A DNA stretch of 38,571 nt from Acidimicrobiales bacterium (GTDB lineage: Bacteria > Actinomycetota > Acidimicrobiia > Acidimicrobiales > SZUA-35): contig JAHDCV010000034.1 of assembly GCA_020629695.1 (NCBI GenBank), positions 1-38,571 of the forward strand, written 5' to 3'. The translations under genes and the position numbers were made by a program. The notes under the pieces were generated by a model that did no database searches, was not told the DNA's origin, and saw nothing but the letters and a program-made list of their open reading frames with translations. Numbering within the stretch: the stretch's first letter is position 1; every line of letters starts with the position of its first letter. Below are positions 3,086-26,331 of this stretch, one piece after another.

Positions 3086-3649
3086 ATGGCCGAGGACAAA
3101 CGTGCCCGGATCCTCGAGGGTGTCATGCGCGTGCTGGCCCGAGACGGGCTCGCCGGTGTGACGATGCGAGCGGTCGCCACGGAAGCCGGCGTCGCGCTCG
3201 GGTTGCTGAACTATCACTTCGAGGACAAGGACTCCTTGGTCGCCGCGGCGCTGGAACGGATCGGCGAGCAGGACGCGGAGCTCGTCGCCCCCGAACCCGG
3301 CCTCGACCCCGGCGCCCAGCTGCGCCACGCCCTCGATCGGGTCGCGGCGCCGGAGTTCCTCGAGGTCGGCTACCTCTCGATGCGCCTCCAGTTGTGGTCG
3401 GTGGCGCCGACCTCGCCGGCGATGGGTGACATCAACCGACGGGCGCAGCGGCGCTACCGAGCCGGCCTCGTCGAGCTGATTCAGGGCGCCAATCCGGACC
3501 TCGACGACGCCGAGGCGATGCGTCGAGCCGCCGACATCCTCATCATCCAGAACGGGGTGTGGCTGACCTCGGCCCTGATCGTCGACGACGACGCGATCCG
3601 ACGCAGCATCGACCGCTGTCTCGAGATCGCGATGACCGCGACGGACTGA
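3086..3649 (+). CDS. TetR-family regulator, BetI-like
   Basis: This 187-aa protein has an N-terminal TetR helix-turn-helix (about residues 8-52: ILEGVMRVLARDGLAGVTMRA then VALGLLNYHFEDKDSLV) and a helical ligand domain resembling BetI-type C-termini (LWSVAPTSPAM, INRRAQRRYRAGL). It is the last gene of the Rieske-SDR operon and probably represses it when inducer is absent. BetI itself responds to choline, but the ligand here is unknown. The palindrome at 1081-1093 is a candidate operator. It could also act on unlinked genes. Confidence 0.88.
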   Translation: MAEDKRARILEGVMRVLARDGLAGVTMRAVATEAGVALGLLNYHFEDKDSLVAAALERIGEQDAELVAPEPGLDPGAQLRHALDRVAAPEFLEVGYLSMRLQLWSVAPTSPAMGDINRRAQRRYRAGLVELIQGANPDLDDAEAMRRAADILIIQNGVWLTSALIVDDDAIRRSIDRCLEIAMTATD

Positions 3650-3699: not shown

Positions 3700-3966
3700 G
3701 CGCCCACGTCGTGCAACAAGCACTCCAGCCCGTTCGCTGGCGGCCCGTTGCGGACCCAGCGGCTTTCACACTCCGGCGGGAACATCCGGCGATGGAACTC
3801 CGCAACGACCACCTCCGGCACGTCGTCACCGAGATCGTCTGGGAGTACGGCGGCGTGACCACGACCGACCAGATCCGTGCCGAGGTGCACGCTCGTTGGA
3901 CGACGCGGGCAGGAGGCAGTCGTTGTCGACCCGCCTCGGGGAGCGGTTGTTGCACCACGTGGGCGC
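3700..3966. repeat. Inverted repeat, 19/20 match, flanking a small broken gene
   Basis: The left copy at 3700-3719 (GCGCCCACGTCGTGCAACAA) matches the reverse complement of 3947-3966 at 19 of 20 positions. Weaker matching continues inward (CTCC on both sides). The arms are 227 bp apart. Read as protein, the arms give LLHDVGA on the minus strand and LLHHVGA on the plus strand. No target-site duplication is evident next to the arms. It may be a remnant of a small non-autonomous element, a duplicated gene end, or a folding RNA. Confidence 0.5.
3792..3966 (+). pseudogene. Small gene broken by an apparent frameshift at about 3895
   Basis: From ATG 3792 one frame reads MELRNDHLRHVVTEIVWEYG and continues to EVHAR with almost all G/C third positions. 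At about 3895 that frame turns into Cys/Arg-rich nonsense, while the next frame (from 3896) continues LDDAGRRQSLSTRLGERLLH, again with G/C third positions throughout. One missing base near 3895 would join the two into one helical, basic, possibly DNA-binding small protein. The second frame stays open into the heliorhodopsin gene, so its true end is unclear; third-position bias fades after about 3966. The rest of 3650-4078 holds only the inverted repeat and no other gene I can support. Alternatives are a sequencing error or two unrelated short frames. Confidence 0.45.
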
Positions 3967-4078
3967 GACGCCATCGGGACCCTGGGTCCCCGGACGTGGA
4001 CGTCTCGCCACGATCCAGCACCGCCGACGCTCGATCCGGCAGGCTGGCGGTCCCTTCTCAACTGAAAGAAGCGCGCTC

Positions 4079-4909
4079 ATGAGCCATCCGCGCCTCACGC
4101 CCCGTCATCCCGTCCTCGAGGCCGTGCCGTCGGTCGAGACCGACGGCCGCCTCGCCCGCCTCCGTCGGTTCAACCTCGTCATGGGCATCCTCCACGCCGT
4201 CTCCGGCGCGGCGATGCTCGCACTCTCGAACGACTTCAGCCTCGCCGTGACGACGTTCTACGTGAACGGTCCCCCCGGCACGCCGCTCGATCAGGGCGTG
4301 TTCGGTGAGGCCTTCTCGGTCGCGATCGGTCCGGCAACCGCCGCCTTCCTGTTCCTCTCCGCCCTGTTCCACCTGATCATCGTGATCCCCGGTGGCTTCG
4401 CCTTCTACGGGCGGGAACTGTCCTACGGGCGGAACCGCATCCGCTGGGTCGAGTACTCGCTGTCCTCGACCGTGATGATCCTGCTGATCGCGATGGTGAC
4501 CGGCCTCACCGATCTCGCCGCGCTCATCGCCATCGCCGCCGCCAACGTCTCCATGATCCTGTTCGGCTGGATCATGGAGATGGTCAACGACTCCACCACC
4601 GGCATGGTCTGGTGGTCGCCGTTCTGGTTCGGCTGCATCGCCGGCGCCGCTCCCTGGGTCGGCCTCGTCGCCTACCTCTGGGTCAACGTCGGCTCCAACG
4701 GTGCGGAAGGCCCGCCGACCTTCGTCTACGGGATCCTCGTGACGATCTTCGCCTTCTTCAACTGCTTCGCCCTCAACCAGTGGCTGCAGTACAAGCGCAT
4801 CGGCCCATGGCGTGACTACCTGTTCGGCGAGCGGACCTACATCGTCCTCAGCCTCGTGGCGAAGAGTGCGCTGGCCTGGCAGGTTTTCGCCAACACCCTC
4901 ATCGACTGA
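4079..4909 (+). CDS. Heliorhodopsin
   Basis: This 276-aa seven-helix retinal protein is recognised with confidence. The Schiff-base lysine is Lys262 in SLVAKSALAWQ (helix 7), the counterion is Glu125 in RWVEYSLSS (helix 3), and the family histidines are His39 (helix 1) and His98 (SALFH, helix 2). Other hallmarks are FYVNGPPGT, ILFGWIME, PFWFGCIAG, FVYGI and LFGERTYIVLS. Approximate helices: 31-51, 78-105, 122-142, 144-166, 180-203, 213-237, 249-274. Heliorhodopsins have a cytoplasmic N-terminus, opposite to type-1 rhodopsins, a slow photocycle and mostly no clear ion transport; a light-sensing role is assumed. ATG 4079 has only a weak purine tract (GAAAGAAG) upstream. The VOC gene follows 18 nt later. 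The same frame is open upstream to 3896, but the residues there do not look like this family. Confidence 0.97.
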   Translation: MSHPRLTPRHPVLEAVPSVETDGRLARLRRFNLVMGILHAVSGAAMLALSNDFSLAVTTFYVNGPPGTPLDQGVFGEAFSVAIGPATAAFLFLSALFHLIIVIPGGFAFYGRELSYGRNRIRWVEYSLSSTVMILLIAMVTGLTDLAALIAIAAANVSMILFGWIMEMVNDSTTGMVWWSPFWFGCIAGAAPWVGLVAYLWVNVGSNGAEGPPTFVYGILVTIFAFFNCFALNQWLQYKRIGPWRDYLFGERTYIVLSLVAKSALAWQVFANTLID

Positions 4910-4927: not shown

Positions 4928-5287
4928 ATGACCAGCCGCCTCGCCAATCTCACCTTCGACAGCCATGATCCGCTCGCACTCGCGGGATTCTGGAGCGGCG
5001 TGCTCGATCAGCCCGTCGACGAGGGGGCGAGCGAGTTCTTCGCGACGATCAACCAGGGACCGAGCAGCGACGGGCCGACCTGGATGTTCCTCGCGGTCGA
5101 GGAGGGCAAGACCGCCAAGAACCGACTCCATCTCGACATCGAGACGGAGGACCCGGACACGGAGATCCCGCGGCTGCTCGACCTCGGCGCCACTCGGCTG
5201 GCCGACAAGGCCGAATGGGGCCACACCTGGACCATCATGGCCGACCCCGAGGGCAACGAGTTCTGTGTGTCGAAGCCACACATGTGA
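4928..5287 (+). CDS. VOC/glyoxalase-like domain protein
   Basis: This 119-aa single-domain protein of the vicinal oxygen chelate superfamily shows an N-terminal strand-helix unit (LTFDSHDPLALAGFWSGVL), a middle RLHLDIET metal-strand and the typical C-terminal MADPEGNEFCV. Such proteins include glyoxalases, dioxygenases and antibiotic-binding proteins, and this subgroup is usually uncharacterised. It lies 18 nt after heliorhodopsin and 11 nt before the acyl-CoA dehydrogenase, all on one strand, so it is probably part of the same transcript. The substrate is unknown. Confidence 0.85.
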   Translation: MTSRLANLTFDSHDPLALAGFWSGVLDQPVDEGASEFFATINQGPSSDGPTWMFLAVEEGKTAKNRLHLDIETEDPDTEIPRLLDLGATRLADKAEWGHTWTIMADPEGNEFCVSKPHM

Positions 5288-5298
5288 GAATCGGCGGC

Positions 5299-6456
5299 GT
5301 GAGCACCGCAGCACCCTCGATCTACGACGAGACCCACGACCTGTTCCGCGACAGCTTCCGTTCGTTCGTGGAGGACCGCATGGTCCCACACACCCACGAG
5401 TGGGAGTCGGCCGGGATCATGGACCGGGCGATCTACGCCGAGGCCGGCAAACACGGCTTCCTCGGCTTCGCCCTGCCCGAGGAACACGGCGGCGGCGGGA
5501 CCGACGACTTCCGCTTCAACGCCATCATCTCCGAGGAGCTCGCCCGCTACGGGCTCGGCGGTGCCGGCCTCGGCATCACGCTCCACAACGACATCACCAC
5601 CCCGTACTACGTGGAGTACTGCAACGACGAGCAGGCGGCACGGTGGATGCCCGGCATCGCCTCGGGTGAGCTCATCACCGCCATCGCCATGACCGAACCG
5701 GGCACCGGCTCGGACCTGCAGGGCATCCAGACCACGGCGGTGCGAGACGGCGACGAGTGGATCCTCAACGGCTCGAAGACCTTCATCACGAACGGCATCA
5801 ACTCCGACCTGATCATCGTCGTCGCCCGCACGAAGCCGGAGGGCGGCAAGAACGGCATGACGCTGTTCGTCGTCGAGCGGGGCATGGAGGGGTTCGACCG
5901 GGGCCGGAATCTCGAGAAGATCGGTCAGCACTCCCAGGACACGGCCGAGCTCTTCTTCGACGACGTCCGGGTCCCGGTGGCCAATGTGATGGGTGAAGAG
6001 GGTCGGGCGTTCGACTACCTCGGCTTCAACCTCGCTCAGGAGCGCCTGTCGATCGGTCTCTTCCAGGTCGCGACGGCCAAGGCCGCCCTCGAGTGGACGG
6101 TCGAGTACGTCAAGGAACGCACCGCCTTCGGCAGCCCGCTCGCGTCGTTCCAGAACACGAAGTTCGAGCTCGCCGAGATGGCGACCGAGATCGCCGTGAC
6201 CCAGCCGTTCATCGATCAGTGCGTCATGAAGCTCAATGCCGGCGAGCTGACGCCCGCCGACGCCGCCATGGCGAAGATGTGGGGCTCCGAGCTGTCGTGC
6301 CGGGTGACCGACCGCTGCCTGCAGCTCTTCGGTGGCTACGGCTACACCACCGAATACCCGATCTCGCGGGCATTCGTCGACGCCCGGGTCACCACGATCT
6401 ACGGTGGCACGTCGGAGATCATGAAGACCATCATCTCGAAGGACGTGCTGGCCTGA
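5299..6456 (+). CDS. Acyl-CoA dehydrogenase (LCAD/IVD-like active site)
   Basis: This 385-aa FAD enzyme carries out alpha,beta-dehydrogenation of acyl-CoA thioesters. It has the signature AMTEPGTGSDL (about 130-140), the FAD/ETF motif QLFGGYGYTTEYP and the C-terminal IYGGTSEIMK. In medium- and short-chain enzymes the catalytic Glu lies in this last motif (YEGT); here it is Gly, as in long-chain and isovaleryl-CoA dehydrogenases, where the base is the Glu of the helix-G motif. Here that is Glu248 in AQERLSIG. Start GTG 5299 is chosen because GGCGG lies just upstream; GTG 5284, overlapping the VOC stop, is the alternative. The stop overlaps the next gene (CTGA). The chain-length substrate is unknown. 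Confidence 0.93.
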   Translation: MSTAAPSIYDETHDLFRDSFRSFVEDRMVPHTHEWESAGIMDRAIYAEAGKHGFLGFALPEEHGGGGTDDFRFNAIISEELARYGLGGAGLGITLHNDITTPYYVEYCNDEQAARWMPGIASGELITAIAMTEPGTGSDLQGIQTTAVRDGDEWILNGSKTFITNGINSDLIIVVARTKPEGGKNGMTLFVVERGMEGFDRGRNLEKIGQHSQDTAELFFDDVRVPVANVMGEEGRAFDYLGFNLAQERLSIGLFQVATAKAALEWTVEYVKERTAFGSPLASFQNTKFELAEMATEIAVTQPFIDQCVMKLNAGELTPADAAMAKMWGSELSCRVTDRCLQLFGGYGYTTEYPISRAFVDARVTTIYGGTSEIMKTIISKDVLA

Positions 6457-7823
6457 GCCGCGACGCTCCCCTCCGCTTCGCCCCGGCCCGGGACGGGCGC
6501 CTCGCCTACCAGACCTGGGGCGAAGGGCCCGACATCCTCGCGATCCCGCCGTTCGCCCAGAACATCGAGGTCGCCTGGGAGCTGGACGCGCTGCGGTCGA
6601 TGCTCGACCGCTTCGGCACGTTCAGCCGCTACACGCACTTCGACAAGCGCGGCGTCGGCGCGTCGGACCGTGGCACCCGGGTCGTCAAACTCGACCAGCG
6701 GGTCGACGATCTGCGGGCGGTGATGGACGCCGCCGGCATCGAGCGGGCGCACATCTTCGCCCAGTCCGAAGGTGGGCCCATGGCCTTCCTCTTCGCCGCC
6801 ACGTATCCCGATCGCGTCGACCGGATCGTCCTGCACGGCTCCGCGGCGAAGCTGGTCCCGGAAGACACACCTCCTGAGCGGATCGAGCTGGCCAGGAACG
6901 TGCAGCGGCAGTTCGCGGACGCCTGGGGCACGCCGGCGTCGATGACGCTCGACTACTTCTCTCCGACACTCGCCGCCGATCCGGAGATCCGAGCCTGGTG
7001 GCCGAGCTACGAACGGAGTGCCGCCACCAGGGACTCGCTGCTCGAGATGTTCCTGCAGAACGAAGAGGTCGATGTGACCGGCGTGCTCGGCGAGGTCCGT
7101 GCACCCGTGCTCATGTTGCATCGGATCGGCGATCAGACCATGCCGCTCGAGTGGGCACGCGAGGCCGTCTCGCTCCTGCCCGATGCGGAGCTCATCGAAT
7201 TGGAGGGCGACGACCACTATTGCTTCGTCGGTGGCATCGAATGGATGGACACCGTCGAGCGCTTCTTCACCGGGCAGGTGTCGACACCGCCGGTCGCCAG
7301 ACCGACGCTGGTCGAGATCGTGACGCTCGGCAAGCTCGAGGTGGTTCGGGACGGCGCAGCCGTTCCGATCTCGGAGTGGGGCTCGAAGCGAGCCCGCACG
7401 CTCCTCGCCCGGCTCGCCGCCGCACGCGGCTGGCCGGTGCCGCGCGAAGAGCTCATGGACATGCTCTGGCCCGACGAGACCGACCTCGCGAAGCTCTCCG
7501 CTCGCCTGTCCGTCCAGCTCAGCCACGTCCGACGGGTGCTCGGCGGCGGGGTGATCGCCGACCGGCAGACCGTGGCTCTCGATCTGGACGAGGTCACGCT
7601 CGACCTGACCGCCGTCGAACAGCTCGAGACGCCGGACGAGATCGTCGACCGGCTCCAACACGAGTTCTCACCGGCGGACCGCTACGAGAGCTGGGCCGAA
7701 CCGATCCGGGCCGAGCTGGACGCCCGCCTCGACCGCGCGCTCCGGCAGCTCGAGCGGGAGGCGATCGACGACGACGTGGAGCTCGCCCGACTGGCCGCCA
7801 TCCGGGGAAGCCGCCACCTCTGA
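6453..7823 (+). CDS. Alpha/beta-hydrolase fused to SARP/OmpR-like winged-helix domain
   Basis: The protein has about 456 aa. The N-terminal alpha/beta-hydrolase (about 1-275) has nucleophile Ser105 in AQSEGG, likely acid Asp227 (GDQT), His255 (DDHY) and the FDKRGVGASDR loop common in regulator-linked hydrolases. The C-terminal part (about 286-380, LGKLEVVRDGAAVP...GSKRARTLLARLAAARG...LSVQLSHVRRVLG) is a winged helix like those of SARP/AfsR regulators, followed by a short helical region. No ATG or GTG fits the beginning of the hydrolase domain; CTG 6453 overlaps the dehydrogenase stop (CTGA) and has AAGGA 9 nt upstream, so translation probably starts there by coupling. It may sense an ester or acyl ligand and regulate genes nearby, such as the cupin 66 bp on. 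Confidence 0.82.
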   Translation: MSRDAPLRFAPARDGRLAYQTWGEGPDILAIPPFAQNIEVAWELDALRSMLDRFGTFSRYTHFDKRGVGASDRGTRVVKLDQRVDDLRAVMDAAGIERAHIFAQSEGGPMAFLFAATYPDRVDRIVLHGSAAKLVPEDTPPERIELARNVQRQFADAWGTPASMTLDYFSPTLAADPEIRAWWPSYERSAATRDSLLEMFLQNEEVDVTGVLGEVRAPVLMLHRIGDQTMPLEWAREAVSLLPDAELIELEGDDHYCFVGGIEWMDTVERFFTGQVSTPPVARPTLVEIVTLGKLEVVRDGAAVPISEWGSKRARTLLARLAAARGWPVPREELMDMLWPDETDLAKLSARLSVQLSHVRRVLGGGVIADRQTVALDLDEVTLDLTAVEQLETPDEIVDRLQHEFSPADRYESWAEPIRAELDARLDRALRQLEREAIDDDVELARLAAIRGSRHL

Positions 7824-7850
7824 CCACGCCGCGTCGGCAACGTCAGGCGA

Positions 7851-7883
7851 TCGAAAGATCATCGAAAGGTCGACTCCTACGGT
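7851..7883 (+). promoter_or_regulatory. SARP-like direct repeats and -10 element before the cupin gene
   Basis: TCGAAAG occurs at 7851-7857 and again at 7862-7868, exactly 11 bp apart. A -10-like TACGGT follows at 7878-7883, 9 bp after the second repeat. SARP regulators are known to bind heptamer direct repeats of about 11-bp period placed about 8 bp before the -10. From this -10 the transcript would begin near the ATG at 7890 and be leaderless. The gene immediately upstream encodes a SARP-like DNA-binding domain, making it the first candidate regulator. Confidence 0.5.
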
Positions 7884-7889
7884 GTGATC

Positions 7890-8414
7890 ATGACCATCCA
7901 GCAGCTCAACGAAACCGCCGACGACCCGACCCAGCCCCACGTGATCGCGAAGGGTGATGGGGACCACATCCACTTCCTGAACCATCTCGCGACTCGCAAG
8001 ATCACCGCCGCTGCCGGCGGCTCCATGGTGGCGACCGAGTTCCTCGCACCACGTGGCTTCGGTCCACCGCTGCACGTGCACCACGACGAAGACGAACTCA
8101 TGGTGCTCCTCGACGGCTCGATCGAATTCCGCTCGGGCGACACCGCCGAGATGGGCTCGACCGGGGCCACGGTCTGGCTGCCCGCCGGCATTCCCCACAC
8201 GTTCCAGGTCCACTCCGAGACCGCCCGGTTCCTCGTCGTGTCCGCCGGTCGCACCAACGCCCCGGCGTTCGACGCGTTCGTCGCCGAACTCGGCGCGCCG
8301 ACCGACCGAGCCGCGCTCCCCGAACCCGGCCCGATCGATCCCGGCCACGTCGCGGCGGTCGCGGCGAAGCACGGGATGGAGATCCTCGGACCACCCCCGG
8401 GACCGCTCGACTGA
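7890..8414 (+). CDS. Cupin-domain protein
   Basis: This 174-aa single-domain cupin (beta-barrel) has motif 1 as PPLHVHHDEDELMVLLDGSI (His, His, Glu metal ligands) and motif 2 as LPAGIPHTFQV (His). It resembles small cupins annotated as quercetin dioxygenase-like, but the activity cannot be told from sequence. ATG 7890 is preferred, with GTG 7884 in frame as an alternative. No convincing ribosome site precedes it, and a -10-like element 6 nt upstream suggests a leaderless mRNA. It converges with the M14 peptidase gene, 8 bp apart. Confidence 0.85.
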   Translation: MTIQQLNETADDPTQPHVIAKGDGDHIHFLNHLATRKITAAAGGSMVATEFLAPRGFGPPLHVHHDEDELMVLLDGSIEFRSGDTAEMGSTGATVWLPAGIPHTFQVHSETARFLVVSAGRTNAPAFDAFVAELGAPTDRAALPEPGPIDPGHVAAVAAKHGMEILGPPPGPLD

Positions 8415-8422
8415 GGCGGTGA

Positions 8423-10105
8423 TCAGCCCAGCGTGATCGAGCGCTCGTCGACGCCCGCTCGTGGATGCACGGTGCGGACCCGCACCGTCGTCCCCGGCGG
8501 GCACCGAACGACGAATCTCGTGAGCGTGCGATCCGGTGTTCCGTCGTTCCCGTCGCGGAACCGCAGCGCCGCTCTTCCCTCGAGTTGGCCGATCGAGCGG
8601 CGCCGGGCCCCGTCGAGGACCTCCACGTCCCCGGCACCGTCGTCGTCGACGACCACCTCGACGGTCGCCGGCAGGACGAGACGGTCCTTCCGTGCCCGCG
8701 CCGACACATCGGTGGGTAGCCACCCCAGGTTCGCCACCCCGACCGACAGCGACCAGGTCCCGTCCCCCAACGCCTCGTGGGTGATGTGGCGGATCGCGAG
8801 CTCCGGTGCACACAGCGCCTGGTGCACGGCGAACTCGGCGTGGCCCCGCACCTCGTCGCCGAGCAGGTGCCGGGGTGGATTGGTCCAGGTGGTCAGGGTG
8901 TCCCATCCGCCGAGCTCGACCGGCCCCAGCACCGGATGCTCGAACCAGTACCAGTCGACGAATCCCCCCGGATGGTGCTCGTCGCACCAGCGGAGCACGG
9001 CGAGCGCCTCGTCGTCGCTCGGCCCGGTGTACCAGAAGTGGGTCGACTGCTTGGTGCCGGTCGCCTGTTCGACGATGTCCCAGAACTCCGTCGTCCACGA
9101 GAACTGACCGAGGTGTTCGTAGACCCAGTCGTCTGCCGCGCCACTCATCGTGTCGGAACGATCCCAGGTGAAGTCCTCGAACACCGAGTGGGCCGGGTAG
9201 CCGGTGAGTCGTGTCCCGACCGATGCGAGCTCGCCCCAGACCCAACGATCCATCGGTGGCAGCTCGGCGTCCGACACGGTGGACGACGGTCGGAGCAACA
9301 CCCCACCACTGGTGTGGAAGGCATTGGCACCACAGATGTTCGGTCGAGCCACGATCGCACGGACGAGCGCGTCGATCTCCGGCTCGGAGAGGGCGTGGTC
9401 CCCGCTCCCCGACACCGTCGCGCCCCAACCGGCCGGGAAGTTCCGGTTCAGATCGAGTGACGCCACCGGCGGTGGCGTCGGCACCGTGAAGCCGTCGTGA
9501 TCCACCACCGATCCCTCTCGGAGGAGCCGATAGCGGGGTCGGTCGTCGTCGAGGCCGGCGGCCGGCACCGGAACGAGCAGACGCGCGTCGTCCGGGTGAC
9601 AGGTCCAGCCGCCGTCGGGATCGGCGAGACGCATCTGGAGGAGACGACCGTCGTCGTCCACATCGTGGGCGTCGAGCCCGGGCCAGCGATGACCGTCGAC
9701 CCATGGCCACGGCCGCGTCGCCGACCGGGGGTGGCGTGGCGTGTCGGCCAGGACCTGCTCCGCACCGTCGGGATTCACTCTCGGCACGACGTAGAAGGTG
9801 CGGCGCTGCAACGCCCGGGTCACCGTCGGGTCGTCACCGAAGCCGTCCACGAGGTGGCGGAGCAGGGCGCACGCCGCGACTGTCGCCGTGAGCTCGACGG
9901 CGTGGATGCTCGCGTCGATCCAGTGGGCGGGTTTGGTCTCGTGCGACCCCGTCGACGAGTCGGTCACGGTCACGAGGACGAGCTCCCGCCCCTCCCGACT
10001 CCGTCCGTAGACCTCGATCGAGACGAGATCGGGATGCTCGACGGCGAGCTGGTCGATCCACGAGCGAAGATCGTGGTACCGGAGGAATGTCAGGTGGTCG
10101 CTCAC
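8423..10105 (-). CDS. M14-family zinc carboxypeptidase
   Basis: This 560-aa protein has a metallocarboxypeptidase domain (about 1-350) with zinc ligands His68-x2-Glu71 (IHAVE) and His264 (AFHTSGG), the substrate-binding motif LDLNRNFP (Asn220, Arg221) and catalytic Glu340 (SWTTEFWD). The C-terminal part (about 360-560) looks like beta-sandwich domains. No signal peptide is seen, so it is probably cytoplasmic, which is unusual for digestive-type M14 enzymes but found in bacterial peptide-processing ones. It starts 9 nt after the CoxL-like stop, in the same operon. The substrate is unknown. Confidence 0.9.
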   Translation of the reverse strand: MSDHLTFLRYHDLRSWIDQLAVEHPDLVSIEVYGRSREGRELVLVTVTDSSTGSHETKPAHWIDASIHAVELTATVAACALLRHLVDGFGDDPTVTRALQRRTFYVVPRVNPDGAEQVLADTPRHPRSATRPWPWVDGHRWPGLDAHDVDDDGRLLQMRLADPDGGWTCHPDDARLLVPVPAAGLDDDRPRYRLLREGSVVDHDGFTVPTPPPVASLDLNRNFPAGWGATVSGSGDHALSEPEIDALVRAIVARPNICGANAFHTSGGVLLRPSSTVSDAELPPMDRWVWGELASVGTRLTGYPAHSVFEDFTWDRSDTMSGAADDWVYEHLGQFSWTTEFWDIVEQATGTKQSTHFWYTGPSDDEALAVLRWCDEHHPGGFVDWYWFEHPVLGPVELGGWDTLTTWTNPPRHLLGDEVRGHAEFAVHQALCAPELAIRHITHEALGDGTWSLSVGVANLGWLPTDVSARARKDRLVLPATVEVVVDDDGAGDVEVLDGARRRSIGQLEGRAALRFRDGNDGTPDRTLTRFVVRCPPGTTVRVRTVHPRAGVDERSITLG

Positions 10106-10114
10106 GAGTGGCGC

Positions 10115-12517
10115 TCAGATCGACTCGGCCGCGTCCGCCGCGGCGTCTCCGGCGTCGCTTCCGTCATCACCGGAGTCGCGGGCCCGCTCGACCAGCAGGT
10201 CGAAGATCGCCGGCGGTTCCCGCCACGGCTCGGGCGGCGATCCCGCCTCGGCGGCGGCGACCGCTTCCCACACCCGACGGGGAGTGCAGGGCATGTCGAT
10301 GTGGCGGATCCCCAGATGCGACACGGCGTCGATGACCGCGTTCTGGATCGCGGGAGTCGATCCGATGGTGGCCGCCTCGCCGATCCCCTTCGCGCCCAGG
10401 GGATTCAACGGCGTGGGCGTCACCGTGTGACCGGCCTCGAACGAGGAGAACTCCGCCGCCGAGGGCACGCCATAGTCCATGAAGTTCGCGGTGATCGGGT
10501 TGCCGGCGTCGTCGAACACGACCTCCTCGTAGAGCGCCTGGGCGACACCCTGCGCGATGCCTCCCTGCTGCTGCCCTTCGAAGATCAATTCGTTGATGAC
10601 CGTGCCGGCATCGTCGATGCCGACATGGCGCAGCATCTCGACCCGACCGGTGTCGAGATCGACCTCGACGACGGAGATGTGCGTGCCGAACGGGAAGGTG
10701 CCGTCGGCCTGCTCGAAGTCGATCTGTGCCGCCAGGGTGACCTCGCGGGTCTCGGCCTCGGTGGCGAGCGCCGACCAGGTCATCGCCTTCGCCGGCACGC
10801 CCGCGACGCCGACGGTGCCGTGCTCGGTGTCGACGACGATGTCGTCGACGTTCGCCTCGAGCAACTCGGCTGCCAGCTCTCGGGCCGACACGACGACCTG
10901 CTCGGTCGCCTCACGCACCGCCGAACCGGCGAGCTGCAACGATCGTGATCCACCGGTGCCACCGCCGCGGGGCACGAGGTCGGTGTCGGACTGCACCAGC
11001 CGGATCCGATCGACGGGGATGCCCGTCTGCTCCGACACGAGCATGGCGTAGGACGTCTGGTGTCCCTGGCCGTGGGCCGACGTCCCCGCACGCATCGTGG
11101 CCGACCCGTCGGCGTGGATCTCGACGGCGCCGAACTCCTTCCCACCGCCGCCCGAGGTGACCTCCACATACGAGGCGACGCCGATGCCCAGCTGGATCCG
11201 GTCCCCGGCCTCCCGGCGACGGGCCTGCTCGGCCCGGAGCTCGGTGTAGCCGGCGAGTCCGGCGGCGTGGTCCATCGTCGCGGCGTAGTCACCGGAGTCG
11301 TAGGTGACACCGGTCAGGGTCGTGAACGGGAACCGATCCGGCGTGAGGAAGTTCTTCCGGCGGATCTCGAGCGGATCCATGTCGAGCTCGATCGCCGCCT
11401 GGTCCACGAGGCGCTCCAGCAGCGCCGCGGCCTCCGGACGGCCGGCGCCCCGGTAGGCGCCGGTCGGAGTCGTGTTGGTGATCCCGACCGCGACGTCGAA
11501 GCGGATCGCGGGAAACGTGTAGGTCCCGTGCGACATGCGCTTCGTGCCCGCGGGCAACATCGCACCGACGTTCGGGTAGGCACCCGCGTCGCCGACGACC
11601 CTGGCCCGCAGTCCGGTGAACGTGCCGTCCTCCTTCACACCGAGCTCGCAGTACTGGACCTGCGCACGCGAGTGCACGAGGGCCACCATGTTCTCGCTGC
11701 GGGTCTCGGTCCAGGTGACGGCACGACCGAGAAGCTCGGCAGCCGCGGCGACGGCGGTGTTCTCGTGGCAGAGCCCGGCCTTCGCCCCGAAGCCTCCACC
11801 CACGTGTGGTGTGATCACTCGCACGTCGGACCGGGACCGTCCGAGCGCCTTCGCCAACGCCGCCTGGAGCCCGTGGGGCATCTGATTCGCCGCATGGAAC
11901 ACGAGGCGTTCAGGGTCACCGTCGGGGTGGCCGGCGGGCACGGCTGCGCACGAGTTCGGCTCCATCGGCGCCGCCGCCACCCGCTGATTGACGTAGCGGC
12001 CCCGGATCACCCGGTCGGCACCGGCGAGCACGTCGCTCTCCGGGTCGACGACCGACAGGGCGAGATTGTGCTCCACCCCTTCGAAGATCCGACCAGCGGT
12101 GAACGACGACTCCGGATCGACCACCACCTCGAGCGGTTCGGTCTCCACGATCACCGCCTCGGCGGCATCGACCGCCTCGGCGAACGACGACGCGAGCACC
12201 ATCGCCACCGGTTCGCCGACGTAGCGGACGACCTCGGAGGCGAGCGGTGTGTGAGCGAACGCCGGACCGACGGGCACGAACCCGTGGTGCGGCTCGACGC
12301 CGAGTTCGGCGGCGGTGAGCACGGCGACGACGCCGGGAGCGGTCACCGCCTCGCTGGTGTCGATCGAGAGGATGCGAGCGTGCGCGTCGATCGAGCGGAC
12401 GAAGACCGCGTGGACGACGTCGGTGAGCCCGAGATCGGCGACATAGCGCCCTCCGGCGGTCAACAGCTCGGGGTCTTCGGTTCGGATGACGCGGTTGCCG
12501 AGAATCGATCCGTTCAT
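10115..12517 (-). CDS. Molybdenum hydroxylase large subunit, CoxL form II-like
   Basis: This 800-aa molybdopterin-binding subunit of the xanthine oxidase/CO dehydrogenase family starts with the typical LGNRVIRTEDPELLTAGGRY. The active-site loop AYRGAGR (354-360) is the form II version; true CO dehydrogenase (form I) has AYxCSFR, so CO oxidation is doubtful. The catalytic Glu is Glu714 in KGIGEAAT. GGGFGAKAG and SAHGQGHQTSYAML are the usual cofactor-binding segments. The medium (FAD) and small (2Fe-2S) subunit genes that normally flank it are absent within the window. The C-terminal tail is low-complexity Ala/Asp. It probably hydroxylates an aldehyde or N-heterocycle with subunits encoded elsewhere. 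Confidence 0.92.
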   Translation of the reverse strand: MNGSILGNRVIRTEDPELLTAGGRYVADLGLTDVVHAVFVRSIDAHARILSIDTSEAVTAPGVVAVLTAAELGVEPHHGFVPVGPAFAHTPLASEVVRYVGEPVAMVLASSFAEAVDAAEAVIVETEPLEVVVDPESSFTAGRIFEGVEHNLALSVVDPESDVLAGADRVIRGRYVNQRVAAAPMEPNSCAAVPAGHPDGDPERLVFHAANQMPHGLQAALAKALGRSRSDVRVITPHVGGGFGAKAGLCHENTAVAAAAELLGRAVTWTETRSENMVALVHSRAQVQYCELGVKEDGTFTGLRARVVGDAGAYPNVGAMLPAGTKRMSHGTYTFPAIRFDVAVGITNTTPTGAYRGAGRPEAAALLERLVDQAAIELDMDPLEIRRKNFLTPDRFPFTTLTGVTYDSGDYAATMDHAAGLAGYTELRAEQARRREAGDRIQLGIGVASYVEVTSGGGGKEFGAVEIHADGSATMRAGTSAHGQGHQTSYAMLVSEQTGIPVDRIRLVQSDTDLVPRGGGTGGSRSLQLAGSAVREATEQVVVSARELAAELLEANVDDIVVDTEHGTVGVAGVPAKAMTWSALATEAETREVTLAAQIDFEQADGTFPFGTHISVVEVDLDTGRVEMLRHVGIDDAGTVINELIFEGQQQGGIAQGVAQALYEEVVFDDAGNPITANFMDYGVPSAAEFSSFEAGHTVTPTPLNPLGAKGIGEAATIGSTPAIQNAVIDAVSHLGIRHIDMPCTPRRVWEAVAAAEAGSPPEPWREPPAIFDLLVERARDSGDDGSDAGDAAADAAESI

Positions 12518-20012: not shown

Positions 20013-21215
20013 ATGCGCGCCGTGGAGGACGAGGCGCAGCGATCCGACGACGCACTGACGACCCCGGACGCCCCCCGCTACCACCGACATCTCGCCGCGC
20101 ACCTGCGGGCACTCGAGCCCGAGCTCTGGGCGTGGTTCGATGATGTTCGCCTGGCGGATCGCCGCGACGACGACGCCGAAGTCGAACTGCTGAAGACCAC
20201 CTACCGCCTGGACGGCGGGGTGCACGACGAGCTCACCGGCCACGGCACGCTCATCGCCGGTCGACTCGGGCTCTCCGAACCCGTGGTGCTGTACCAACAA
20301 CTCCACGACGAGGAGCGCAACGCCCGGGTCTTCCGTCTGAACGGCCGCATCCACGTCGTGTTCGTCGGCGACCTGCTCGACCTGTTCGAACCAGCCGAGC
20401 AGCGGGTCGTGCTCGCGCACGAGCTCGCCCACATCGCGCTCTGGGGCCTCGCGGAAGGCGAGTTCGCGACCCTCGACCACCTCGTCCACCGGCTCGCGCT
20501 CGAGGCGCCGACGAACGCCGCCCTCACCGAGTCGGCGCGCAGACTGCGGCTCCGCACCGAGGTCTGGGCCGACGCCGTCGCCGTCTCGGTGCTCGGGGAT
20601 CCACGTCCGGTGATCTCGACCATCGTGAAGACGGTCACCGGCCTCCGGAACGTCGATCCCGATGCCTACCTCAAGCAGGCCCGCCAGATCCTCGAACGGG
20701 ATCCGGGGTCGTCCCGCCAACTCACCCATCCGGAGCTGCACATCCGGGTCGCCTGTCTCGCCGCCGCCGATCTCGATCACGTCGAGGACCTCGTCGACGA
20801 GCTCATCGGCGGTCCCGACGACCTCGACCGCATCGATCTGTTGGGGCAGGTCCGACTCCTCGCCCTGGTTCGGCGTGTCCTCGCCGGCGCGCACCCGCTG
20901 CTCCCGTCCGACGACGCCATCGACGCGCACGTCCGGCATCTGGCGTCGGTGACCGAACTCGGCCGTGTGCGACCGATCGACGACGCCGAACTCGTGACCG
21001 TCACGCCGTCGATCCGGCATCTCGCAGCCGCGCAGCTGGTCGACCTGGCCTTCGTGCCCCGCGAGGGTGACGGGCTCGGCGAGCTCCGGGTGTTGTCCCA
21101 CGAGGCCGAGCGGATCGGGGTCGCCGCCGAGTTCGACAAGATCGTCGCCAAGGCAAGCGACCGCACGGTCGCCCAGGCACGCCGCCTCCGGACCGACGGC
21201 GGTGATCCGTCGTGA
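20013..21215 (+). CDS. M48-like zinc metallopeptidase
   Basis: This 400-aa protein contains the zinc motif His136-Glu137-x2-His140 (VLAHELAHIALWG) and a downstream third ligand Glu183 in RTEVWADAVAV, the ExxAD pattern of gluzincins such as M48. HPELHIRVACL at about residue 235-250 matches the HPSLxxRIxxL segment of M48 enzymes. Unlike HtpX or Ste24 it has no membrane helices, so it should be cytoplasmic. It is followed 7 nt later by the giant helicase gene and is almost certainly co-transcribed with it. Whether it cleaves the helicase, a phage protein or another target is unknown. Confidence 0.78.
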   Translation: MRAVEDEAQRSDDALTTPDAPRYHRHLAAHLRALEPELWAWFDDVRLADRRDDDAEVELLKTTYRLDGGVHDELTGHGTLIAGRLGLSEPVVLYQQLHDEERNARVFRLNGRIHVVFVGDLLDLFEPAEQRVVLAHELAHIALWGLAEGEFATLDHLVHRLALEAPTNAALTESARRLRLRTEVWADAVAVSVLGDPRPVISTIVKTVTGLRNVDPDAYLKQARQILERDPGSSRQLTHPELHIRVACLAAADLDHVEDLVDELIGGPDDLDRIDLLGQVRLLALVRRVLAGAHPLLPSDDAIDAHVRHLASVTELGRVRPIDDAELVTVTPSIRHLAAAQLVDLAFVPREGDGLGELRVLSHEAERIGVAAEFDKIVAKASDRTVAQARRLRTDGGDPS

Positions 21216-21222
21216 GCCGACC

Positions 21223-24200
21223 ATGACCCTCGCCCGTCTCCTGTCCGAGACCGTCGTCCGTGGCTTGCCGACGACCGGCGACCTGCTGGCCGTCGGACTC
21301 CCGTTCCTCCGGCAACTCGCCGACCTGCACGAGCAGGGCCTGGTGAGCCGGCTGCACGGCGCAGAACACATCGACTTCACCGACGATCGCCTCCGGGTGA
21401 CACCCCCGGAGGGCACCGAACCGGCTCTCGTCCCCGAGATGCTCGAGCGTCTCAATCCCGAGCGGCATCGACGAGGTGTCGCCGTCACGGCCCGCCTCGG
21501 CATCGACCAGGGCGACGGGCAGCGTTGGGACGAGGTTCGGAGCCGAGACGTCCTGACGGATCTGGATGCCGTCCCCGACCGTCCCGTGCTCGTCGTCGGC
21601 TACCGGGCCTGGGAGGCGCGTCTCGGCCATCACGACGTGCTGACCGACATCCACCTTGCCGGGCTCGTCCTCACGTCGTTCGCCACGGGCCTCGACCTCG
21701 ACAACCCGGACCAACTGAGCGAACTCGCCCTGGCCAGGCGACGCCTGCCGACGCTGACGGCGGGCGTGCATCCGGTCGTGACCGGCGTACTGGCCGAGAT
21801 GATCGACCCCGACCGGCACGAGCGGCCACCGGACCTCCGACACGTCATCGCCCGCCTCGAACACCACCGGGACCTGCCCGCCGATCTCGATCTGAGCGAC
21901 GCCCTCGCCGACCCGACCGACTGGCGCCCCGCCGTGCTGCGACGGCTGCGGGAGCGGGTGTTCGACACGACCCGACGCAACCGGGCCCTCTACTTCCGAC
22001 CGAGCGTGTCGACCGTCTCGCTGACCGAGGCGTCGGTGCCGTTGATGTTGAACGTCGATCGCATCACGGCCGACGACGTGCTCACCTGGAGCGGTGACGC
22101 CGCCGCGGTGCTCTCGAGTGGGAAGAGCATCGACCTGGAGCGATGGTGCCGCTTCGAGGACGCCCCACACATCACGTCGTCGCTCGACAAACTCATGGCG
22201 GCCGAGCGGAAGTTCGTCGTCGAACACGGCGCCGGGCGACTCCGGCTGGTCACGACCTTCCTCCACTGGACCGACCCCGACACCGGGCACCCCGTGTCGA
22301 CCCCGTTGACCTCCTACGGCGCGACCCTCACCCGGCAGAAGGGTGTGAAGCCGCGCTACCGGGTCACGGCCAACGGCGACCACGAGGTCAATCCGATCCT
22401 GCGGTTCGTCTTCCGGCAGCGTTTCGACGTCGTCCTGCCCGAGACCGTCGGTCCCGATCTGATCTCGCTCCGGGCGTTGACCGACGAGATCCAGACGTCG
22501 GTCCGCCGTACCGATCCAGCGGTACGCATCGAACTGGTCGACACCCCACGGATCCAGCTGATCCAGCGGCGGGCCCGTCTCCGACTCGACAACTACCGAC
22601 GACGCCGCGCGATCGCGCAGGCGTCGAGTGGTCGGTGGCGACGGCAGGACCACTCCTACACACCGGACGACTGGCGTCCGCTCGGGCTCGCGCTCGTCGA
22701 TCGGTTCGTGCTCCCCGAGGAGCTGCCGCTCCGGTCGATCGCGGGCGCCGACGCTCGACCCCGGGGCCGCCCACAGGAGTTCTCGGCCGACGACACCACG
22801 TCGGCGCCGGGCTCCGACGAGACAGCCGACGATCGAGACCCCTCGCAGCGAGCTCGGGAGACCTACTCGCTGACCGGACGGGACACCCACGCCCAACGCT
22901 GGGAGGTGGATCTGTGCGCCGTCACGCTCGCGACCCTCGGGACCAGGCGGACGACGCTGTCGCGTGACTACGACGATCTCCTCGGCGGTGACGAGGCGGC
23001 GCTCGAACATCCACCGTTCGTCGAGTTGTTCCGACCGGGCCGAACCGATGCACCGAGCGCGAAGGACCCGCATCCGCGGGCCGAGCGCCAGGGCGTCCCG
23101 CTGGTGCTGCCCGCCGACGACGCCCAGATCGACGCGGTCGCCCGAGCGCTCGACGGCGACTCGTTCATCGTCCAGGGCCCACCGGGAACCGGGAAGAGCC
23201 AGACGATCGCCAACATGATCGCCGCGCTCGTCGCCGATGGCCGACGAGTGCTGTTCGTCTGTGAGAAGCGGGCGGCGCTCGACGTCGTGGCCCATCGTCT
23301 CGACCAGGTCGGTCTCGGCGACCTCGTCGCGACGATCCACGACACCCAGGCCGACCGGAAGCCGTTCGTGCAAGCGCTCGGCCGCACCTACGAGTCCTGG
23401 CTCGCGTCGGCGCCGTCCGGCGCGGCCGAGAACCAGCGGGTGGCCGACGCTGCGGCCCTGGGACGCCTCCTGCGGCCGCCGACGCAGCTGCGCGACGACC
23501 TGCACCGACACCACGACGGGCAGCCGACCACGGCTCAGCTCCTCGTGCGGGCCGCTGCGCTGCGACATCTCGGCGCGGCCCCCGGACGGGTGCCGTCCCT
23601 CGGCGGGGGCATCACCGCCGGGGACTGGTTCGCCGCCCGCCGGCACTTCGATGCCGTCCGAGCACGCCTCCGACACGACGGTCTCGACGACGAGCTCGGG
23701 CGCCACGACATCCTCCGGCTCCGGCCCGACGTGCTCGCCGACGGCGACGTGCTCGGCATCGCCCGGCGCATCTCCGACCAACTCGTCCGGGCCCGAGCGA
23801 ACGCTCCCCTCGACGATGCCCTCCCGGTCGCCGGCCTGGCCGACCTCCAATCGACCATGCGGACGGTCTCGCCGCTGATCGAGGCCGGTGCGGCCGGTGT
23901 TCTCGATCCGACCCACCCGGCCCATCAGGACCTCCGCCGAGCCTCCGAGGCCCGCATCGACCTGGAGCGACGCCTCGCCACGAGTGCGGAGGTCCTGGGG
24001 CGATGGTTCGATCCGCTCGATGCCGCCGACACCCGCGCCGCGTTGGAGGTCGCCCGCGGCGCCGAGGGATCGCTACGCCGCTTCTTCAACAGCCGCTGGA
24101 AGCAGGTCGAACAGACCGTCCGCTCGGCGTATCGCTTCGACCTCCACCAGGTGGCACCGACGGTCACGTCGGTGTTGACCGAACTCGACCTCCATCACAC

Positions 24201-26331
24201 CTTCGTCGCCGACGCCGCCCATCGCCGTGCCACCGACACCGCCCGCTTCGGCACCGACGACGTCGTGGGACTGGTGCGCTGGATCGATCATCTGCACTCC
24301 GATCGGGAGTCGCCGACGAACGCCGCGATCCGGTCGCTCCTCGTGACGCACGGGACACCGGAACGTTGGAGCTCGGCGATCTCGGCGGTCGACGAGCTGG
24401 TGGTGAGCGCCGGCCACCTCCTCGTCTCCCCATCGGTGACCGTGGGCCAGCTCGGCACACTCGCCGAGGGGCTCCGCACGACCGGTGTCGCCCACGAGGC
24501 CGCAGCGATCGAGTGGTGCCGGCTCGCAGGGACCCCCGAGGCGGTGCTCGGACTGGCGCTCGGCCCCTACGAGCTCAACGATCTCGACGCCCGGATCTGT
24601 GTCGAAGACCTGGAACGGCGCCACCTGGACGGACTCTCCCCGGCGACCGGTGCCGAAGCCGACGATCTGACGCCTCGAGTGCTCGACGCCGCGGACCGCC
24701 TGCGCCGGTCGACCGCCGCCGCCATCGTCGAGCGAACCCACCGCCGATTCACCGACGAGATCGCACACAGCGACGCCTCGATGGCCGGGCGCAGCGATGA
24801 GGACAAGGAGCGCAAGCGACGCTACAACGCCGGCCGGCGACTCCTGGAGCGTGAGTTCGCCAAGAAGATGCGCTTCCGTGCCCTCCGCGAGCTGGCCGAC
24901 GCCGAGCCCGGCGAGGTCGTGCGGGACCTCCGGCCGATCTGGCTGATGAGTCCGCTCTCGGTCTCGGATTCGTTACCGCTGCGTCCGGACCTGTTCGACA
25001 CCGTGATCTTCGACGAGGCGAGCCAGATCCCCGTCGAAGACGCCGTGCCCACGGTGTTCCGGGCGCCGCAGGTGATCGTCGTCGGCGACCGCATGCAGAT
25101 GCCGCCGACGCGCTTCTTCTCCTCCGACGACCTGGAGGACGACGACGTCGTCGTCGATGCCGAGGGGTTCAAGCTCACCGTCACTCTCGATGCCGACAGC
25201 TTCCTCGCCCAGGCGGACGCATCGCTCGACTCGAGCATGTTGTCCTGGCACTACCGCTCTCGCTCGGAGTCACTGATCGCCTACAGCAACAACGCCTTCT
25301 ACCGCGGCGAACTCGCGACGATCCCCGATCGGGACCTGCCGAACGCCACGCTCGATCCGATCGAGGTCGGCGACCCCGACGACGGCGCGACCAACGCCGC
25401 TCGGATCCTCGACCGTCCGATCTCGTTCCACCGTCTCCGGAACGGGATCTACGAGCATCGCCAGAACCAGCCGGAGGCGGACTACATCGCCGAGCTGGTC
25501 CGCGCGCTGATCGCCCCCACCGAGCACCCGACGATCGGCATCGTCGCGTTCTCCGAGGCCCAGCAGACGGCGATCGAGTCGTCGCTGGCCGAACTCGCCA
25601 CGGTCGACGAGAACTTCGGTGCGCGGCTGGCCGACGAGGAGCAGCGCCGGGATGACGGCGAGTACGTCGGACTGTTCGTCAAGAACCTCGAGAACGTCCA
25701 GGGCGACGAGCGGGACGTGATCATCATGAGCGTCTGCTACGGACCCGACAGCGAGGGCTCGATCCGGATGAACTTCGGGCCGATCAACCAGGGCGGCGGC
25801 GAACGACGGCTGAACGTGATCTTCTCCAGGGCGAAGCGTCACATGGCCGTCGTCGCCTCCATGTCCGGCGCTTCGATCACCAACACCCACAACGACGGCG
25901 CCAACCATCTGGCCCAGTTCCTGACCTTCGCCGAAGCCGAGAGCCGCGGCGATCTGGCGACCTCGTCGGCGGTGTTGCGCGAGCAGCGGGGTGTCGACGT
26001 CACGGCCGATCTCGCCGCACCCGACCGGGTGGCGCACGAGGTCTCGGCGGCGCTGGTTCGCGCCGGACACCGGGTGGACCTCGGCGTCGGCCGCTCCGAC
26101 TTCCGCCTCGACCTCGCCATCCGTGACGACGAGGGCTACGTGCTGGGTGTGCTCCTCGAGCCCGGCGAACGCGACGCCCTGTCGACCTACGTGAGCGAAG
26201 CGGGCGTGCTCGATGCCTTCGGCTGGCAGGTCACCCGGGTGCCGCTGCACGAGTGGTGGCGGGACCCCGACACCGTCATCGAGCGGATCGACGCCCGGGT
26301 CCGCCGTCTCAGCGACCGTGGCAGTGCTTGA
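21223..26331 (+). CDS. Giant SF1 (Upf1-like) helicase with DUF4011-like and nuclease-like domains
   Basis: The protein has 1702 aa. A DUF4011-like region (about 230-550, with FDTTRRNRALYF) precedes a helicase core: motif I GPPGTGKS (652-659), a long insertion with coiled-coil-like segments (about 750-1240), motif II DEAS (1264-1267), motif III VVGDRMQMPP, motif IV GIVAFSEAQQ, motif V NVQGDERD and motif VI RRLNVIFSRAK. The C-terminal 100 residues resemble the MTES_1575/Vsr-like endonuclease fold, with Asp1630 (FRLDLAI) and Glu1646 (VLLEPG), but the usual ExDG motif looks altered. Helicases of this build are found in anti-phage and DNA-processing loci. ATG 21223 is 7 nt after the peptidase stop. 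The end overlaps the opposite-strand SEC-C gene by 23 bp. Confidence 0.88.
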   Translation: MTLARLLSETVVRGLPTTGDLLAVGLPFLRQLADLHEQGLVSRLHGAEHIDFTDDRLRVTPPEGTEPALVPEMLERLNPERHRRGVAVTARLGIDQGDGQRWDEVRSRDVLTDLDAVPDRPVLVVGYRAWEARLGHHDVLTDIHLAGLVLTSFATGLDLDNPDQLSELALARRRLPTLTAGVHPVVTGVLAEMIDPDRHERPPDLRHVIARLEHHRDLPADLDLSDALADPTDWRPAVLRRLRERVFDTTRRNRALYFRPSVSTVSLTEASVPLMLNVDRITADDVLTWSGDAAAVLSSGKSIDLERWCRFEDAPHITSSLDKLMAAERKFVVEHGAGRLRLVTTFLHWTDPDTGHPVSTPLTSYGATLTRQKGVKPRYRVTANGDHEVNPILRFVFRQRFDVVLPETVGPDLISLRALTDEIQTSVRRTDPAVRIELVDTPRIQLIQRRARLRLDNYRRRRAIAQASSGRWRRQDHSYTPDDWRPLGLALVDRFVLPEELPLRSIAGADARPRGRPQEFSADDTTSAPGSDETADDRDPSQRARETYSLTGRDTHAQRWEVDLCAVTLATLGTRRTTLSRDYDDLLGGDEAALEHPPFVELFRPGRTDAPSAKDPHPRAERQGVPLVLPADDAQIDAVARALDGDSFIVQGPPGTGKSQTIANMIAALVADGRRVLFVCEKRAALDVVAHRLDQVGLGDLVATIHDTQADRKPFVQALGRTYESWLASAPSGAAENQRVADAAALGRLLRPPTQLRDDLHRHHDGQPTTAQLLVRAAALRHLGAAPGRVPSLGGGITAGDWFAARRHFDAVRARLRHDGLDDELGRHDILRLRPDVLADGDVLGIARRISDQLVRARANAPLDDALPVAGLADLQSTMRTVSPLIEAGAAGVLDPTHPAHQDLRRASEARIDLERRLATSAEVLGRWFDPLDAADTRAALEVARGAEGSLRRFFNSRWKQVEQTVRSAYRFDLHQVAPTVTSVLTELDLHHTFVADAAHRRATDTARFGTDDVVGLVRWIDHLHSDRESPTNAAIRSLLVTHGTPERWSSAISAVDELVVSAGHLLVSPSVTVGQLGTLAEGLRTTGVAHEAAAIEWCRLAGTPEAVLGLALGPYELNDLDARICVEDLERRHLDGLSPATGAEADDLTPRVLDAADRLRRSTAAAIVERTHRRFTDEIAHSDASMAGRSDEDKERKRRYNAGRRLLEREFAKKMRFRALRELADAEPGEVVRDLRPIWLMSPLSVSDSLPLRPDLFDTVIFDEASQIPVEDAVPTVFRAPQVIVVGDRMQMPPTRFFSSDDLEDDDVVVDAEGFKLTVTLDADSFLAQADASLDSSMLSWHYRSRSESLIAYSNNAFYRGELATIPDRDLPNATLDPIEVGDPDDGATNAARILDRPISFHRLRNGIYEHRQNQPEADYIAELVRALIAPTEHPTIGIVAFSEAQQTAIESSLAELATVDENFGARLADEEQRRDDGEYVGLFVKNLENVQGDERDVIIMSVCYGPDSEGSIRMNFGPINQGGGERRLNVIFSRAKRHMAVVASMSGASITNTHNDGANHLAQFLTFAEAESRGDLATSSAVLREQRGVDVTADLAAPDRVAHEVSAALVRAGHRVDLGVGRSDFRLDLAIRDDEGYVLGVLLEPGERDALSTYVSEAGVLDAFGWQVTRVPLHEWWRDPDTVIERIDARVRRLSDRGSA

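Follow-up and report, generated by a model that had tools for sequence, protein, structure and literature searches.

Heliorhodopsins (HeRs) are light-sensing membrane proteins that are present in many actinobacteria and whose role is still debated. Two regulatory members of the family, AbHeR and OcHeR, bind a partner via their cytoplasmic loops and change its activity, the partner being glutamine synthetase for AbHeR (PMC9529153) and OmrDE for OcHeR (PMC11109279). HeRs linked to histidine kinases have also been described before (Bulzu et al. 2021, PMC8612252).

Here we compare with these systems two heliorhodopsins from the genome of an Acidimicrobiales bacterium (GCA_020629695.1; 4.17 Mb, 97% complete). 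The first, HeR1, is encoded within 38,571 nucleotides of contig JAHDCV010000034.1, the whole stretch of DNA that was analysed (hereafter the window); the second, HeR2, is encoded outside it.

HeR1 is a complete and ordinary heliorhodopsin

The HeR1 gene (positions 4079-4909, forward strand) translates from an ATG start codon into 276 amino acids followed by a stop. GC content by codon position is 0.59/0.46/0.92 in this frame, a strong coding signature, and 0.65/0.78/0.66 in the upstream segment 3900-4078. Because the gene-typical pattern begins only at 4079, the ATG at this position is a credible start; an alternative ORF of 337 amino acids starting from a TTG at 3896 was ruled out by codon-position GC. 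The gap between HeR1 and the preceding TetR gene also holds a short coding-like stretch at 3792-3900 (MELRNDHLRHVVTEIVWEYGG...), whose coding signature fades and which is perhaps a gene remnant.

A profile search against rhodopsin families placed HeR1 inside the heliorhodopsin family: it matched Pfam PF18761 with an E-value of 2.4e-96 over the entire profile (1-242 of 242; 322 bits against a cut-off of 26.7) and the NCBIfam equivalog NF038020 (HeR) at 1.3e-91 (306 bits against a cut-off of 100), while a phmmer search of the PDB returned the actinobacterial heliorhodopsin 48C12 at 1e-73. PF18761 was the sole Pfam family matched at E≤1e-3, and no match to the type-1 rhodopsin family PF01036 was obtained, either for HeR1 or genome-wide. 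The N-terminal MORN repeats or CxxC zinc ribbon that mark MORN-HeR and Znf-HeR fusions were likewise absent, the HeR1 N-terminus being free of cysteine and the protein having no Pfam domain besides PF18761. The AlphaFold model (pLDDT 91.5) has the heliorhodopsin fold, with a TM-score of 0.91 to 48C12 (by target), and every one of its top ten hits in the PDB is a heliorhodopsin; the model contains seven long helices and two strands (54-61 and 74-82) that form the long beta-stranded first extracellular loop of the family. The original prediction of a complete heliorhodopsin gene is thus borne out by the ATG-to-stop translation and by the Pfam, NCBIfam and PDB matches.

The same prediction had singled out Lys262 and Glu125 among the hallmarks of the family, and both residues were found where it placed them. 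Lys262 (codon 4862-4864, forward strand) corresponds to K241 of 48C12, the retinal Schiff-base lysine in TM7, and closes an SxxxK motif, S258-K262, that aligns with S237-K241; Glu125 (codon 4451-4453, forward strand) corresponds to E107, the TM3 counterion. Both are invariant in 47 aligned HeRs. HeR1 is 51% identical to 48C12 (PDB 6su3, 6uh3 and 9ljj) over 247 aligned residues and shares its fold. The pairwise alignment further equates H23, H80, R104 and S237 of 48C12 with H39, H98, R122 and S258, and A240 and Q213 with A261 and Q234. H39, S94, H98, R122, W123, E125, S258 and K262 all match 48C12, and most are invariant across the 47 HeRs. Unlike 48C12, HeR1 has M166 at the position of Q148 and carries about 16 extra N-terminal residues, which are modelled with low confidence (pLDDT about 50).

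Heliorhodopsin genes occur in 26 of the 39 genomes of the family and in 171 of the 395 genomes of the class, so proteins like HeR1 are common. A tree of 74 HeRs places HeR1 among those of the Acidimicrobiales, with weak support for its nearest relatives. Taken alone, HeR1 is an ordinary heliorhodopsin, one more member of this common kind. Two other arrangements were observed in the loci compared. In another genome of the same family (L108), a SpoIIE phosphatase gene (7518-8726, reverse strand) is divergent from a HeR gene (8911-9720, forward strand), 185 bp away, with a STAS protein encoded beyond. In Cryobacterium melibiosiphilum, two HeR-like genes (3817-4587 and 9998-10801 of locus L034) lie about 5.4 kb apart, the first of them divergent in sequence (34% identity to HeR1).

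HeR1 is most likely a slow green-light sensor

Apart from the Schiff-base lysine, HeR1 has 14 lysine and arginine residues in its N-terminus, ICL1 and ICL3, and none in its predicted outer loops, a charge pattern that fits the inverted, N-in topology. The basic loop residues are R112, R118, R120 and R122 in ICL1, and K239, R240, R245 and R252 in ICL3. Basic ICL1 and ICL3 loops are shared with AbHeR and OcHeR, as is the presence of other genes close behind the HeR gene; unlike these two proteins, HeR1 has no adjacent gene for a glutamine synthetase or an ABC transporter.

Q213 and A240 of 48C12 occur in HeRs that absorb above 550 nm (PMC7807009). HeR1 keeps the equivalents of both, although not that of Q148, which makes green absorption a reasonable inference. 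HeR1 belongs to the same family as the viral protein V2HeR3 and has the same counterion, but a light-gated proton transporter of that type is highly improbable here: the TM6 residues E191 and W195 of V2HeR3, which mark proton-transporting HeRs (PMC9448325), align with I223 and F227 in HeR1, the residues that are also present in the non-transporting TaHeR. Since these marks are absent, HeR1 is most likely a slow green-light sensor, for which we infer retinal binding, colour, topology and coupling to a partner.

Because the HeRs studied so far bind the products of neighbouring genes via their cytoplasmic loops, we take HeR1 to be a slow sensory rhodopsin with a partner. Altogether, we think it probable that HeR1 is an N-in, retinal-binding, sensory type-3 rhodopsin that signals to this partner via its basic cytoplasmic loops and is not a pump or channel. 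In the proposed mechanism, the seven-helix protein would bind all-trans retinal, probably taken up from outside the cell, through Lys262, and green light (about 550 nm, as expected from Q234 and A261) would isomerise the retinal. A slow photocycle would then alter ICL1 and ICL3, and the altered loops would bind a partner in the cytoplasm or the membrane so that its activity changes, with no ions being pumped or conducted.

The neighbourhood of HeR1 is not conserved

Upstream of HeR1 lie genes for a Rieske oxygenase, an SDR protein and a TetR-family regulator, the last of which (3086-3649, forward strand; PF00440) ends 429 bp before HeR1. Three genes follow on the forward strand. A Glyoxalase_6/VOC-family gene (4928-5287; PF18029, 8.2e-28), possibly co-transcribed with HeR1, begins after 18 bp; an acyl-CoA dehydrogenase gene (5299-6456; PF00441, PF02770 and PF02771) begins 11 bp after that, although the gene caller favours 5284 as its start; and the third (6453-7823) encodes an alpha/beta-hydrolase (PF00561) joined to a SARP-like winged-helix region in which Trans_reg_C scores below the cut-off, its start being tentative and near the dehydrogenase stop. 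No histidine kinase gene adjoins HeR1 in the window, and no match to a sigma-70-like promoter was found between 3500 and 8500, a pattern that need not fit the promoters of these bacteria. Elsewhere in the window, positions 21202-26331 (forward strand) encode a 1709-residue protein that combines DUF4011, a helicase split into AAA_11 and AAA_12 parts and, at the C-terminus, an MTES_1575 nuclease domain; it resembles a large helicase-nuclease and is possibly defence-related.

By position only, the VOC and acyl-CoA dehydrogenase genes would be candidates for the partner of HeR1. The tight same-strand spacing raises the idea that HeR1 controls, in response to light, the proteins encoded with it in a putative operon (the VOC protein, the dehydrogenase and the hydrolase-SARP protein), much as AbHeR regulates glutamine synthetase, and Glyoxalase_2 genes and alpha/beta-hydrolases are known next to HeRs (PMC8612252; PMC11109279). 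We consider this unlikely. A conserved-context search (52 loci from genome contigs and 25 same-family loci) showed that the arrangement is unique to the source genome: it recurs at none of the 74 other HeR loci, not even at the one from the same genus, and there is therefore no sign of selection for it. The neighbours of HeRs generally vary widely among the loci compared. It follows that, for HeR1 as a slow sensory rhodopsin, the partner cannot be read off its own locus, and the earlier expectation that each genomic context of a heliorhodopsin is informative applies only weakly to this locus; the informative context in this organism is that of HeR2.

Retinal is probably scavenged

The source genome gave no match to the phytoene synthase/SQS family (PF00494), which the control found in 7 genomes. 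No match to the Blh family was obtained either; the control for this family was also silent, so that this search does not show absence. HeR1 might consequently be produced but idle in situ, in a cell that makes no retinal. This is very unlikely, given that its key retinal-pocket residues are fully conserved and that Ca. Actinomarinales keep a HeR and a proton pump while lacking retinal-synthesis genes (PMC7771536). The latter case makes scavenging plausible and, with no phytoene synthase match, the retinal of HeR1 is probably scavenged from outside the cell.

A second heliorhodopsin lies in a bacteriophytochrome operon

HeR2 is encoded on another contig (C97, 32979-33749, reverse strand) and is 60% identical to HeR1 locally and 58% over the full alignment. 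The tetranucleotide correlation of C97 with the window is 0.983, as against 0.980 between the window's own halves. C97 was therefore taken as belonging to the same genome, and contamination was ruled out as its origin. A search of plasmids for HeR2 gave two distant matches only. An annotated heliorhodopsin gene with 39% identity to HeR2 is located on a 10.5-kb Lactococcus petauri plasmid (NZ_CP141705.1, 4155-4916, reverse strand).

The HeR2 operon extends from 15045 to 8342 on the reverse strand of locus L003 (C97:24000-42000). Its order of transcription is response regulator, bacteriophytochrome kinase, REC-PAS-SpoIIE phosphatase, heme-oxygenase-like protein, HeR2 and a LuxR-type gene, and 4-bp overlaps join the first four genes. 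A STAS gene and two more LuxR genes are found nearby on the opposite strand. The bacteriophytochrome has a GAF-PHY-HisKA-HATPase architecture (Pfam PHY, 1.9e-28; PDB bacteriophytochrome, 5e-114) and, as read from its sequence, keeps the N-terminal cysteine that is the expected site of biliverdin attachment and the DIP motif. The usual PHY tongue motif in phytochromes is PRxSF; this protein (L003:12263-14596, reverse strand) has SPAGSF in its place and so is missing an arginine that is expected to be conserved.

The neighbour immediately preceding HeR2 matched Pfam with an E-value of 0.16, not above the cut-off, and BLASTP did not match it to the Nocardioides heme oxygenase described below. A profile that includes three relatives encoded next to phytochromes reaches pa-HO at 1.6e-10, and the best matches of a medium-quality model are heme oxygenases; it is on these two, the relatives' profile and the model, that we call the protein heme-oxygenase-like.

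In lying in an operon with a histidine kinase and response regulators, HeR2 resembles the histidine kinase-linked HeRs of Bulzu et al. (2021), but differs from them in that the kinase is a bacteriophytochrome and in its heme-oxygenase-like neighbour. In a literature search that covered few subscription journals and no supplementary tables, none of the 8 papers that mention both heliorhodopsin and phytochrome deals with an operon of this type, as judged by title and abstract, and no paper mentions heliorhodopsin together with heme oxygenase. The presence of HeR2 in this operon indicates that light signalling is most likely the general role of heliorhodopsin in the source organism.

A parallel arrangement occurs in Nocardioides

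In Nocardioides sp. T2.26MG-1 (locus L047, 9980-13728, forward strand), a HeR gene is followed by genes for a phytochrome with a C-terminal SpoIIE domain and a heme oxygenase (PF01126, 1.3e-50). A second Nocardioides genome (locus L119, 10741-7571, reverse strand) has a HeR gene directly upstream of a phytochrome with a SpoIIE domain; the heme oxygenase is missing. An AU test rejects a sister relationship between HeR2 and the phytochrome-linked HeR of Nocardioides (p 3.7e-6), and the arrangement therefore most likely has two or more separate origins.

Only 3 of the 395 genomes of the class have a phytochrome that scores above the cut-off. By a post hoc estimate, HeR-phytochrome adjacency within 2.5 kb would occur by chance on the order of once in 1000 genomes that have both. 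Co-occurrence of HeR and phytochrome was not enriched in Nocardioides (10 of 216 genomes, 12.5 expected), where their adjacency in two related genomes is the sole feature that stands out. Nor were signalling genes enriched near HeRs in our sample (11 of 355 near versus 11 of 426 far genes; p 0.41).

Together, these loci lead us to a tentative proposal, which we put forward as a possibility: that HeRs were recruited independently, at least twice, into bacteriophytochrome operons, in Acidimicrobiia (HeR2) and in Nocardioides, and that a membrane-bound, retinal-based green sensor and a bilin-based red/far-red kinase/phosphatase may form one two-colour switch that feeds SpoIIE/STAS-type signalling, with HeR1 providing that cell with a second input based on retinal. 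The value of HeR1 is that it points to a genome whose second heliorhodopsin sits in a bacteriophytochrome operon. With its independent parallel in Nocardioides, this operon is a concrete, testable partner system for heliorhodopsin, and in the cell that carries HeR2 a single signalling output may be served by two types of chromophore.
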